The notes beneath the pieces were generated by a model. It made no database searches. It was not told the origin of the DNA and saw only the letters and a list, made by a program, of their open reading frames with translations. A stretch of DNA of 39,657 bases, from positions 1 to 39,657 of IMG/VR virus record IMGVR_UViG_3300002514_000078; one strand, written 5' to 3'. The stretch comes from a virus. The translations under genes were made by a program, and so were the position numbers. Of the stretch, positions 483 to 3,882 are shown piece by piece. Each line of letters opens with the position of its first letter. The stretch's first letter is position 1.

Positions 483-779
483 TTGAAACATTACAACAAA
501 CTCGACTCAGCTTGCGAGGCAGCTCGGCGCTTTGTTTCCCTTAACGGCAATGGTGCAGCGGTAATCACCACCACCGAGTTGCCAGGCGTTTACCAGGTGG
601 GCACGACCCACGAGGCCCGCCAAACGGGGCAAGAACAAAATATCGAAAGTTGCCGCTTGTTCTATGGGATCACCGACCGGCGCCACCAAGCCAGACAACC
701 CGACGCCGCCTACCCTGTGCTCGAGACGGAGACGGCACTGCTGCATCGTCGAGGCCAATCCAACACAGGGTCAGAATGA
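483..779 (+). CDS. Small protein of unknown function, first gene of the left operon
   Basis: This 98-residue protein is read from a TTG at 483. I chose that start because it is immediately preceded by GGAGACACC, the same box found directly before the ATG of four other rightward genes. An upstream ATG at 408 lies in the same frame but has no ribosome binding site. The N-terminal part (MKHYNKLDSACEAARRF) looks helical. The C-terminal third is rich in Arg and Gln. No family is recognised. Its TGA overlaps the ATG of the methyltransferase gene (ATGA at 776-779), so the two are probably translationally coupled, and it may assist the modification genes that follow. Confidence 0.6.
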   Translation: MKHYNKLDSACEAARRFVSLNGNGAAVITTTELPGVYQVGTTHEARQTGQEQNIESCRLFYGITDRRHQARQPDAAYPVLETETALLHRRGQSNTGSE

Positions 780-1822
780 ATGAGTTGGCATTATTTGCAG
801 GCGCTGGTGGAGGCATCCTCGGCGCGCACCTGCTCGGATGGCGAACCGTCTGCGCCGTGGAGACGGAGCCGTATTGTCGGGAGGTGCTCCTCCGAAGGCA
901 GCAAGACGGCATGCTTCCCCTGTTCCCAATCTGGGACGACTGCAACACCTTCGACGGTGCCCCTTGGTCTGGCCTCGTGGATGTCGTCACTGCTGGATTC
1001 CCGTGCCAGCCTTTCAGCGTTGCCGGCAAACAAGAGGGAGCCGACGACAACCGAAACGGATGGCCAGCAACCATTCGCATCGTGGACGAAGTCAGACCAA
1101 GCTTCGTTTTATTGGAGAACGTCCCAGGCTTGCTTACCGCTGGGCATGGGTACTTTGGACAGGTACTCGGAGACTTGGCCACGATCGGGTACGACGCTGT
1201 CTGGGATTGCTTTCCTGCTGCAGCCATCGGCGCGCCGCATCGCCGCGACCGACTCTGGGTTCTTGCCTGCCCCAATAGCGACCAACACCAAGGCAGTACA
1301 CCTGCGGTCGGGGGGCCGGCCGCCGCGCACCTACATACCGACACCAACGGCAGGCGATGCGAAGAGCAGCGGCAGTCGAAATCTCGAGGGGAGCAAAGCC
1401 AACCACGGAGTATCGCTGACGGATTGGGTGAAGACCGGCGACTCGACGGCACCTCGGCAGGGAATGTTCCCGACGCCCCAGACCACCCAATGGCCGAACG
1501 AGGGCAACATGCGCTTGATGCGCGGCCTGGTTCTCGAGGGGAAAGTGAGCAGGGAAGAGGCCCAGCAGATGATCGGCAAAGACCCCTTCGCAGCGCAGGG
1601 AAACCTGCAGGCGATGGAGTTCCCGACACCGAGCGCGAGCGATTGGAAAGGCTCGGCGAAGGGGGCCATACCGGCTGGTGGCAAACTGAACCCGACGTGG
1701 GTCGCGTGGTTGATGGCATGGCCCATCGGGTGGACCAACTTAGAGCCCTTGGCAATGGACAGGTGGCAAGCGTGGTGCCTTTCGCATGGCATAGCCTGCG
1801 CAAGAAAGCTGGATTCCGATGA
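776..1822 (+). CDS. C5-cytosine DNA methyltransferase
   Basis: This 348-residue enzyme should transfer a methyl group from S-adenosylmethionine to carbon 5 of cytosine in phage DNA. The family motifs are in order: motif I LFAGAGGGILGAH (residues 6-18), motif IV GFPCQPFSVAG (74-84) with catalytic C77, motif VI ENV (114-116), motif VIII GAPHRRDRLWV (152-162), and motif X LGNGQV near 325-330. Residues 165-310 form a variable target-recognition region. The ATG at 776 starts right at motif I and overlaps the previous stop. The gene's end overlaps the next gene (ATGA at 1819). Target sequence unknown; likely role is protection from host restriction. Oddity: another full-length reading frame overlaps it (see 780-1826). 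Confidence 0.93.
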   Translation: MNELALFAGAGGGILGAHLLGWRTVCAVETEPYCREVLLRRQQDGMLPLFPIWDDCNTFDGAPWSGLVDVVTAGFPCQPFSVAGKQEGADDNRNGWPATIRIVDEVRPSFVLLENVPGLLTAGHGYFGQVLGDLATIGYDAVWDCFPAAAIGAPHRRDRLWVLACPNSDQHQGSTPAVGGPAAAHLHTDTNGRRCEEQRQSKSRGEQSQPRSIADGLGEDRRLDGTSAGNVPDAPDHPMAERGQHALDARPGSRGESEQGRGPADDRQRPLRSAGKPAGDGVPDTERERLERLGEGGHTGWWQTEPDVGRVVDGMAHRVDQLRALGNGQVASVVPFAWHSLRKKAGFR

Positions 1823-1826
1823 GTAG
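780..1826 (+). CDS. Overlapping +1-frame ORF inside the methyltransferase gene, possible overprinted gene
   Basis: A second ATG lies four bases after the methyltransferase ATG (ATGAATGAG at 776-784) and opens a frame of exactly the same length, 348 codons, ending four bases later. Its translation carries coherent motifs rather than random residues: MSWHYLQALVEAS at the start, ETWPRSGTTLSG near residue 134, TPTAGDAK and TPSASDWKG in the variable region, and NPTWVAWLMAWPIGWT near 304-319. From memory, such phrases recur in phage proteins annotated near or as cytosine methyltransferases. The frame lacks the catalytic PCQ and SAM motifs, so it is not itself a methyltransferase. It could be a real overprinted protein sharing one ribosome binding site with the enzyme, or a frameshift partner. 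Expression is unproven. Confidence 0.45.
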   Translation: MSWHYLQALVEASSARTCSDGEPSAPWRRSRIVGRCSSEGSKTACFPCSQSGTTATPSTVPLGLASWMSSLLDSRASLSALPANKREPTTTETDGQQPFASWTKSDQASFYWRTSQACLPLGMGTLDRYSETWPRSGTTLSGIAFLLQPSARRIAATDSGFLPAPIATNTKAVHLRSGGRPPRTYIPTPTAGDAKSSGSRNLEGSKANHGVSLTDWVKTGDSTAPRQGMFPTPQTTQWPNEGNMRLMRGLVLEGKVSREEAQQMIGKDPFAAQGNLQAMEFPTPSASDWKGSAKGAIPAGGKLNPTWVAWLMAWPIGWTNLEPLAMDRWQAWCLSHGIACARKLDSDE

Positions 1827-2499
1827 TCAGGCTCGATTGCCCGGCCTACTCGAGCAGGGTGCCGGCAAACTTAAAATATACTCCGGCTATTCGTACAGCA
1901 TCGACGAAGAGATCCAAGCTTTGAGTTCCGGCATTGTCGCCGGGCCACGCTGGATCAAGAACTGCAGAAGGGAATACCCTGCGCTGCCCGTCATACTCGA
2001 CAACGGCGCTTTCCCTGCGTGGTTCCGCGGCGAGTCGCTCGCCTTCGATGATCAGGTTGAAGCAGTCCAGCGCGCCGCCGAGATTGCGCAGGAGGCAGGT
2101 TTGCTCGAGTCCATCATAGCGCCCGACATCGTCGGTGGTGGCCCAGCGAGCTGGAAGAGAACGCTGCGCAGCCTGCCCTACCTCGACCCGTTTGGGGTTA
2201 AATTGCTGCTGCCCCTTCAGGAAGGCATCGATATTGACGAGGCCATTGCCGTTGCCAACGACACCGACAGCGGCATTTTTATCGGTGGCAAATCGATGCG
2301 TTGGAAAGTGAAAGCCGCGCAGCTGATCGACCAGCGAACCTATGTGCATGTCGGTCGCGTGAGTCGCGACGGCTACCTCTGGACCTTTTCGCAACTCGCC
2401 GACGCAGTCGATTCAACGACGTGGACGCGCTCTCAACATTGGAATCAGACCATTAACTGGCCGCAAATCCTGCGGCGATACACCCAAGGAAAGAAATGA
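1819..2499 (+). CDS. dpdA: DpdA-like 7-deazaguanine DNA transglycosylase
   Basis: This 226-residue protein resembles the short DpdA branch of the tRNA-guanine transglycosylase superfamily. These enzymes exchange guanine in DNA for a 7-deazaguanine such as preQ0. Visible signatures are LDNGAF (D61), IIAPDIVGGG (D103), LLPLQEG, GIFIGG and YVHVGRVSR near the C terminus, which together match the TIM-barrel active-site loops expected of the family. D61 and D103 are the candidate catalytic aspartates. The next gene is queD, a 7-deazaguanine biosynthesis gene, which strongly supports the call. Start and stop overlap both neighbours by ATGA. The zinc-binding cysteine cluster of bacterial Tgt is not apparent. 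Substrate base and target motif cannot be read from the sequence. Confidence 0.75.
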   Translation: MSSQARLPGLLEQGAGKLKIYSGYSYSIDEEIQALSSGIVAGPRWIKNCRREYPALPVILDNGAFPAWFRGESLAFDDQVEAVQRAAEIAQEAGLLESIIAPDIVGGGPASWKRTLRSLPYLDPFGVKLLLPLQEGIDIDEAIAVANDTDSGIFIGGKSMRWKVKAAQLIDQRTYVHVGRVSRDGYLWTFSQLADAVDSTTWTRSQHWNQTINWPQILRRYTQGKK

Positions 2500-2861
2500 A
2501 AATCTCTAAAGCTTTCAGATTTGAAGCGGCCCACAGGCTGCCCAACACTCCCGAGAACCACAAATGCAGAAGGCTGCACGGTCATTCGTATCGCGTGGGC
2601 GTTCGCGTGGCCGGACCAGTAGATCAGAGCATGGGTTGGGTGATCGATTTCTCGGAAATCGCCAAGGCATGGGAGCCGCTTCACGATCTCTTGGATCACC
2701 ATTACCTCAACGAAGTGCCCGGACTCGAGAACCCAACGAGCGAGAATCTAGCCAAGTGGATTTGGGACCGACTCATCGACGACCTTCCAACCCTTGAGCG
2801 CATCATCGTCCGAGAAACCTGCACTTCCGCTTGTTACTACGAAGGGCCTGCAGATGATTGA
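2496..2861 (+). CDS. queD: 6-carboxytetrahydropterin synthase, QueD
   Basis: This 121-residue member of the PTPS/QueD family converts dihydroneopterin triphosphate to 6-carboxytetrahydropterin, an early step to preQ0. Expected residues are present: zinc-binding H13 (EAAH), H28 and H30 (LHGH), catalytic C24 (KCRRLHGH), the D67-H68 pair (LLDHHYLN), NPTSENLAKW, and a late glutamate in VRETCTS. The length is normal for QueD. The gene overlaps dpdA by ATGA and the next methyltransferase by eight bases. No FolE, QueE or QueC is seen in the window, so the host must supply the other steps, or they lie elsewhere. Its position next to dpdA points to DNA rather than tRNA modification. Confidence 0.92.
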   Translation: MKISKAFRFEAAHRLPNTPENHKCRRLHGHSYRVGVRVAGPVDQSMGWVIDFSEIAKAWEPLHDLLDHHYLNEVPGLENPTSENLAKWIWDRLIDDLPTLERIIVRETCTSACYYEGPADD

Positions 2862-3882
2862 GAAGACACTACACGGAGGCCAAGCGCGCCTCATCTACGG
2901 CCAGTCATGCATCGCAAGCTTGCGCCAACTCGAGTCGGAGTCGATCCATTGCGTGGTGACCTCACCGCCATTCTGGAATCTACGCAACTATTGCGACCAC
3001 CCGTCCCAGCTGGGCCTCGAAACAACGCCGCAAGAATTTGTGGATAACCTGGTCGATGTGTTTCGCGAGATTCATCGAGTGCTGCGCAGCGACGGCACCG
3101 TCTGGCTTAACCTTGGCGACACCTATGCCAGCAATGGCTACCCCAACAACGCAAAGGCAGGACTAAACCAACGGATGTTTGGGGACCACCGTTCTGCTGG
3201 GCGCCAGTCAGACGACCGAGCGCGCCATGTGCCGAGCGGTGAGCATGGCCTAAAAGTGAAAGACCTGGTGGGCATACCGTGGCGCGTCGCCTTGGCTCTG
3301 CAGGCTGACGGCTGGTGGCTGCGCCAAGACATCATCTGGCACAAGCCCAACCCAATGCCCGAGTCCTGCACCGACCGCTGCACCAAATCGCACGAGTACA
3401 TCTTTCTGCTGACGAAGTCGGCGAAGTATTACTCTGAGTTTGGTGAGATCAAAGAGCCAGCGGTGAGCGGTGAGCGGTTTCATGGCGGCTACGATGCAGT
3501 GATGGCCGATGGAAGCAAGGGCCATAGCCGCAACGGCCGAGACGATCCCAACAACCGGGCCAATTGGCGCAACAAGCGCAGCGTCTGGACAATCGCCAGC
3601 CAAAGTTACCACGGCGCACACTTCGCTGTGTTCCCTGAAGAGATCCCGAGGCTAGCGATCAAAGCAGGATCGCCCATTGGAGGCACTGTGCTCGACCCGT
3701 TCAGCGGCTCAGGCACCACCGGCAAAGTCGCTCTGCAGGTTGGCCGCAACTACATCGGGCTCGACGTCAACGAAGAGTACCTCGATCTAGCGCTGCGCCG
3801 GGTCGATCAATTTCGGTCAGACAGTCCCACCCAAGAAGAGGACGACGGACAAGAAACCCTGTTTAGTGGAGTCGATGAATAG
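2854..3882 (+). CDS. Beta-class DNA amino-methyltransferase (N4-cytosine or N6-adenine)
   Basis: This 342-residue protein starts at ATG 2854, eight bases inside queD and preceded by a GAAGGG ribosome binding site. The catalytic motif TSPPFWNLRNY comes first, near residues 34-44. The SAM-binding motif VLDPFSGSGTT, followed by GRNYIGLDVNEEYLDLA, comes near the C terminus. That order defines the beta group of amino-methyltransferases. The middle carries the typical GDTYASNG, VGIPWRVALALQADGWWLRQDIIWHKPNPMPES and HEYIFLLTKS-type segments, read in sections. TSPP is compatible with N4-cytosine or N6-adenine methylation, and I cannot decide between them. It most likely completes a multi-layer DNA protection cassette. 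Confidence 0.92.
   Translation: MIEKTLHGGQARLIYGQSCIASLRQLESESIHCVVTSPPFWNLRNYCDHPSQLGLETTPQEFVDNLVDVFREIHRVLRSDGTVWLNLGDTYASNGYPNNAKAGLNQRMFGDHRSAGRQSDDRARHVPSGEHGLKVKDLVGIPWRVALALQADGWWLRQDIIWHKPNPMPESCTDRCTKSHEYIFLLTKSAKYYSEFGEIKEPAVSGERFHGGYDAVMADGSKGHSRNGRDDPNNRANWRNKRSVWTIASQSYHGAHFAVFPEEIPRLAIKAGSPIGGTVLDPFSGSGTTGKVALQVGRNYIGLDVNEEYLDLALRRVDQFRSDSPTQEEDDGQETLFSGVDE

Follow-up and report, generated by a model that had tools for sequence, protein, structure and literature searches.

In the two-polypeptide C5-cytosine DNA methyltransferase M.EcoHK31I, the gene for the large subunit also codes, in an alternative frame, for the small one. The large subunit of this enzyme, which recognizes YGGCCR, carries motifs I–VIII and X, and the small subunit carries only motif IX (PMC3404938). 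M.AquI, a second two-polypeptide C5-methyltransferase (CYCGRG), has motifs I–VIII in one chain and the distal variable region together with motifs IX–X in the other (PMC3404938). A further case of a protein encoded out of frame within a phage methylase is the ShiLan element, in which an HNH endonuclease lies out of frame inside an actinophage methylase (PMC11855218). Here we describe a methyltransferase locus at positions 776–1826 of the viral record IMGVR_UViG_3300002514_000078, analysed over its full 39,657 nucleotides (the window), in which two proteins, P1 and P2, are read from the same strand in different frames. We found no description of this overlap family in the open-licence literature searched. 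Our reading, which we hold at a probability of roughly 0.8, is that the overlapping pair encodes the two subunits of a single C5-cytosine methyltransferase of the M.EcoHK31I sort.

Two overlapping reading frames

The features on which the argument depends are as follows.

776..1822, + strand: P1, C5-cytosine DNA methyltransferase frame, 348 amino acids, with motifs I, IV, VI, VIII and X
780..1826, + strand: P2, +1-frame protein overlapping P1, 348 amino acids, PHROG 1008 family
776..782, + strand: start junction ATGAATG, holding the P1 start, the stop of the upstream open reading frame and the P2 start
776..1273, + strand: core, P1 motifs I–VIII, the same DNA being read as the N-terminal half of P2
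1274..1679, + strand: VIII-to-tail region, read by P2 as TP modules
1335-1364, 1467-1493 and 1620-1649, + strand: the P2 TP modules IPTPTAGDAK, FPTPQTTQW and FPTPSASDWK, respectively
1680..1739, + strand: motif-IX-like segment of P2, GKLNPTWVAWLMAWPIGWTN, matched by profile to fused enzymes; third bases of P1 nearly invariant
1742..1765, + strand: P1 motif X (RALGNGQV), overlapping P2 residues EPLAMDRW

P1 opens at ATG 776 and runs for 348 codons to the stop at 1820–1822, and P2 opens at ATG 780 in the +1 frame and runs for 348 codons to the stop at 1824–1826, so that the two start codons are four bases apart, as are the two stop codons. A preliminary description of this DNA had pointed out these paired open reading frames (ORFs) and quoted four family-like phrases from the second; both frames and all four phrases are present. 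The single ribosome binding site that it placed before them is weak, consisting only of AGGG about 8 bases 5′ of ATG 776. Within the window alone, frame 2 contains no stops where synonymous shuffling predicts 3.4 (P ~0.008), which makes the open frame only modestly unlikely. An antisense ORF (670–1803, minus strand, 377 codons) is open as well, with no stops against 5.1 expected. Because the window taken alone offers only a mild surprise, and an antisense frame is also open, relatives are needed to decide.

Frame 2 is kept open across relatives

A first set of 75 viral genes with a GC content of 0.46–0.67 was fetched by the P1 frame and is therefore not selected for frame 2. In almost all of them frame 2 is open nearly end to end, with 98 stops against 460 expected, many of which sit at the NTGA start junction or close to the end. 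A refined count of 104 genes, which includes loci fetched by either the P1 or the P2 frame and takes its expectation from synonymous shuffles, gives 10 frame-2 stops against ~482: 9 against 312 in motifs I–VIII, and a single one against 170 between motifs VIII and X. The preliminary description had proposed that homologues of a true gene pair would be without stops in the second frame, and this is what the 104 genes display. A further 72 loci of other families, found by P2 queries, have 11 stops against 210 expected from motif IV to motif X, and frame 2 remains open also in loci of 37–46% GC.

The remaining frames and related enzymes serve as controls. In 103 relatives, frame 2 up to motif X has 10 stops against 497 expected, compared with 1608 against 1412 for the +2 frame and 566 against 566, 458 against 482 and 987 against 906 for the three antisense frames. 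The second of these antisense counts belongs to the ORF at 670–1803, which is not conserved as a gene and is apparently open by chance. Fused actinophage methyltransferases, whose own frame already includes the P2 end, have 40 frame-2 core stops against 53 expected, and seven ordinary C5 enzymes, taken from bacteria in which the overlap type also occurs, have 118 against 119. Both kinds of enzyme lie near expectation, and the depletion of stops thus belongs to the genes that need P2.

Hundreds of phages and prophages share the conserved double reading. Its phage carriers, among them Acinetobacter phage vB_AbaM_ABMM1 and Salmonella phage S9-5, infect Proteobacteria, cyanobacteria and Firmicutes, prophage-like loci occur in many phyla, and a plasmid collection yielded only three weak relatives. 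When P2 alone was used as the query against prokaryote genomes, automatic scoring found a methyltransferase that it overlaps in the +1 register at 73 of 80 loci. Among the exceptions inspected, L239 and L276 are overlap loci that the motif pattern had missed, and L246 is rearranged by a frameshift. In another of these exceptions, a Microvirga prophage copy (L259), P1 has an in-frame stop at 1728–1730, directly after the GFPC of the catalytic motif, and P2 is still open.

Selection is divided between the two frames

Synonymous constraint was measured on 100 genes dereplicated at 80% nucleotide identity, with the expectation taken from each gene's own codon usage; QueD was considered as a control gene for codon constraint, but with just six relatives the set was too small. 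Of 110 fourfold-degenerate P1 columns, 85 are constrained (mean 1.14 against 1.83 bits), which bears out the reduced synonymous variation foreseen in the preliminary description. Third bases of P1 are essentially invariant where P2 reads W112, P134, G137 and the WLMGWPIGWT segment, for example at P305 (92/92), A311 (74/74) and V112 (74/74).

Omega was estimated from DNA-level pairwise alignments of 710 pairs with no protein filter; since the pairs share sequences and ancestry the intervals are too narrow, and we rely on the direction of the effect rather than on their width. In the core (motifs I–VIII) omega is 0.22 for P1 and 0.66 for P2, in the VIII-to-tail region it is 1.13 for P1, which is neutral, and 0.31 for P2, and in the tail it is 0.33 and 0.27, respectively. 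The direction in the middle region is the same whether the alignments are based on P1 (0.93 for P1 and 0.61 for P2) or on P2 (1.18 and 0.27). Variability there at P1 codon positions 1, 2 and 3 is 0.462, 0.190 and 0.169, the pattern of third-position variation typical of the P2 frame. By these estimates motifs I–VIII are constrained mainly via P1, the stretch between motifs VIII and X only via P2, and the tail via both. Judged by comparison among relatives, both frames are protein-coding and conserved. The proposal of an old, conserved overprinted gene pair is thereby supported by stop depletion, synonymous constraint and purifying selection on frame 2; what the preliminary description had not seen are the motif-IX-like end of P2 and the selection on P2 over the whole part between motifs VIII and X.

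The length of the P1 spacer between motifs VIII and X varies between 53 and 237 codons. Of 106 pairs whose core identity is 90% or more, 34 differ in it by at least 10 codons. This is how exchangeable specificity regions behave.

A probable motif IX in the second frame

P1 matches Pfam PF00145 (DNA_methylase; 4e-33) over residues 4–172 only, and PHROG 363 at 5e-64. All of the C5-cytosine methyltransferase motifs I (ALFAGAGGG), IV (GFPCQ, with PCQ), VI (ENVPG, with ENV), VIII (HRRDRLWV) and X (LGNGQV) lie in its chain. The TIGR00675 profile covers P1 only at positions 4–166 of 329; in ordinary methyltransferases from the same bacterial genomes it is covered from 1 to 328, and in P1-type genes the match mostly ends at ~165–210. 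Judged from the coverage of TIGR00675 and PF00145, motif IX (xLTPRExxRLMGFPD) is not recognizable in the P1 chain, which therefore has the large-subunit pattern of motifs I–VIII and X without IX.

P2, like all five of the homologues scanned, matches PHROG 1008 (7.4e-26 for P2 itself), and has no match in Pfam, NCBIfam or PADLOC. Its N-terminal ~165 residues are without a homologue of known function. The assignment of motif IX to P2 rests on a chain that runs from P2 through the fused enzymes to the canonical motif. The P2 profile segment LNPxWVEWLMGWPxGWT matches a segment of fused actinophage methyltransferases with an E-value of 1.8e-12, and the motif IX–X part of an ordinary-enzyme profile, RLTPxExxRLMGF...QAYxQFGNSV, aligns to RLAPAFSEWMMGW...MLRIIGNGV of the fused enzymes with an E-value of 0.0017. 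The WLMG codons lie 41 nucleotides 5′ of motif X in almost all loci in which both are found. The profile matches indicate that the end of P2 is homologous to the motif-IX segment of the fused enzymes and, since that segment aligns in turn to the canonical motif, P2 most likely carries motif IX, with motifs I–VIII and X in P1. A P2 profile search against PDB sequences gave nothing meaningful (best E-value 0.12), and a single-sequence PDB search with the C-terminal piece of a fused enzyme gave no methyltransferase match. The model of a fused enzyme can be superposed along its whole length on M.HhaI (Z 21, residues 2–352 on 10–326).

Fused, split and interrupted forms

In the fused form, to which most of L283–L298 and some actinophage genes belong, the P2 modules and motif IX are in frame within a one-piece methyltransferase, in the order motifs I–VIII, TP modules, motif-IX segment and GNGVVPQQ (motif X). 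The TP modules of fused enzymes are selected in the methyltransferase frame (0.139, 0.114 and 0.401 at the three codon positions). In the split form (L149, L153, L187, which is Streptomyces phage Samy, L211, L245, L303 and L309), motif X follows motif IX in the P2 frame and P1 ends soon after motif VIII. Once motif X need not be reached, P1 past motif VIII decays and P2 stays open, as expected if P1 beyond motif VIII is only a spacer.

Two loci carry HNH-like coding inserts near the junction of P2 motif IX and P1 motif X, at 2351–2749 in L153 and at about 2060–2421 in L151. Owing to the insert, motif X of L153 lies in the P2 frame. The double-coded tail may be a preferred site for homing. In Mycobacterium phage Jarcob (L179) the methyltransferase is annotated at 1350–2520 as two overlapping genes. 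Compared with ShiLan (L177), a P2-type segment (YDPDTSSWKMW...SETWPPSGMTRSG) continues in frame into methyltransferase motif VIII, an arrangement that may reflect a deletion, a sequencing error or a real rearrangement.

A two-subunit model and its alternatives

A more informative feature than the ribosome binding site is the start junction: the upstream ORF (408–779) ends at TGA 777–779, overlapping the P1 start, and the P2 ATG at 780 follows directly. Among 136 loci the P2 start codon is ATG in 131 and GTG in 5, the preceding codon is TGA in 113 and TAA in 8, and an ATG, GTG or TTG lies four bases 5′ of the P2 start in 122. Termination–reinitiation at two starts would be the simplest reading of this junction. 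In the model that we propose, P1 (alpha) would supply the S-adenosylmethionine-binding and catalytic core, motifs I–VIII, plus motif X, and P2 (beta), one base ahead on the same DNA, would supply a modular target-recognition sequence and motif IX. Ribosomes that terminate at the TGA of the upstream gene probably reinitiate at the overlapping NTG for P1 or at the adjacent ATG for P2, which would couple the amounts of the two chains, and these would then assemble into a complex. Between motifs VIII and X, P1 would be a mere open spacer that needs to reach motif X, so that the DNA there could follow P2 and exchange recognition modules freely. We infer translation from both starts, formation of the complex and a role of P2 in target recognition. 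The wider proposal, that P2 is the modular, exchangeable specificity subunit of a widespread phage and prophage class, with TP modules shuffled over a catalytic frame that acts as a neutral spacer, is one that we favour only slightly; specificity could then change with no change in the catalytic core.

Several observations weigh against this model. The predicted recognition domain of M.EcoHK31I has been reported in the large subunit (PMC3404938), unlike the division between P1 and P2. Canonical motif IX compared directly with P2 gives a weak match (E-value 0.31), although the best-matching part of P2 is the same WLMGWP segment. The AlphaFold model of P2 alone is poor, with a mean predicted local distance difference test score of 55.5 and only residues 301–340 near 80, which suggests either that P2 needs its partner or that the model is uninformative. 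The fused-enzyme model, too, has low confidence in the TP modules, and gives no structural support for a recognition domain. Finally, the omega of 0.66 in the motif I–VIII region means that P2 is only mildly constrained there.

The preliminary description also raised a product made by frameshifting, and the best-surviving alternative is of this kind: P2 would arise wholly or partly by programmed frameshifting off P1, giving not a separate subunit but a chimeric methyltransferase with motifs I–VIII from P1 and the TP modules and motif IX from P2. In L149, L187, L211, L245, L303 and L309, one +1 shift past motif VIII would indeed suffice to complete the enzyme, and fused enzymes of that domain order exist. 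In the common type, however, motif X is in P1, and the ribosome would have to shift a second time, backwards, for the chimera to include it. Moreover, P2 has its own conserved start directly following the upstream stop, and frame 2 is open through the entire core, which a late frameshift does not need. We therefore consider frameshifting unlikely.

It is slightly less probable still that P2 is an independent protein of another function, for example in anti-restriction or regulation, overprinted by chance on a methyltransferase. The N-terminal part of P2 and its lack of database matches fit such a protein, but P2 is almost never seen without an overlapping methyltransferase, it bears the motif-IX-like segment that P1 is without, and in some genomes it is continuous in frame with motif X or with an entire methyltransferase. 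The most improbable reading of all is that frame 2 is open only because of base composition, codon usage or a constraint at the nucleotide level, as the window-only P-value and the open antisense frame might suggest. Such a shadow is rejected by the stop-count controls: frame-2 stops are depleted ~50-fold across relatives and the frame is open even at low GC, stop counts in the antisense and +2 frames come close to expectation or exceed it, depletion is slight or absent in fused and ordinary methyltransferases, and variability follows the frame-2 codon periodicity.

Surroundings and implications

Directly 3′ of the pair, at 1819–3882 of the window, is a likely DNA-modification cluster. It encodes a protein weakly similar to queuine tRNA-ribosyltransferases (PHROG 887, 3e-4; PHROG 15826, 1.5e-13), a QueD-like 6-pyruvoyl tetrahydropterin synthase (Pfam, 1e-37) and an N4/N6 DNA methylase (Pfam, 1.5e-47), a content that suggests modification of the 7-deazaguanine type. 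Positions 1–400 of the window hold short direct repeats, ACCGACC units followed by repeated GGCCAATCC units.

To our knowledge, long same-strand overlaps in which conservation supports both frames are seldom found beyond the small viruses, and the phages and prophage-like loci described here have ~1 kb of double-coding DNA. PHROG 1008, filed as a methyltransferase of unclear kind, is explained as the out-of-frame partner, and annotation by the P1 frame alone leaves out half of the probable enzyme. Should P2 be the specificity subunit, P1 cloned alone would be an inactive or misleading enzyme, and one would need to look to the other frame for the specificities of many orphan phage methyltransferases. 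With fused and split forms available in nature, the evolution of an overlapping pair can be tested directly.

Comparison with known systems

By its description M.EcoHK31I is the closest counterpart, as P1 has motifs I–VIII and X, P2 has the probable motif IX, and the second polypeptide lies in an overlapping frame. In contrast to that enzyme, the P1/P2 overlap spans essentially both whole genes and P2 is as long as P1. Selection between motifs VIII and X, the presumed recognition region, also acts on P2 and not on P1, which suggests the opposite of the placement reported for the large subunit of M.EcoHK31I. The arrangement of the split loci L149, L211, L245, L303 and L309 is similar to that of M.AquI, whereas the common type keeps motif X in P1 and has both chains read from one DNA. 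With the ShiLan element the locus shares a second protein in another frame of a phage methylase gene. That element is a mobile insertion carrying an HNH gene, whereas P2 is a +1-frame reading of the methyltransferase gene itself, and no HNH endonuclease domain is found in P2 by Pfam. In Paenibacillus larvae phage Shelly (L176) a frame-2 ORF at 1201–1905 within the methyltransferase gene has been deposited as ‘g55 internal gene’ (SHELLY_56), in a record that gives neither function nor conservation. PHROG 1008, matched by P2 and its homologues, bears the name ‘DNA methyltransferase’, which hides its status as an out-of-frame partner.
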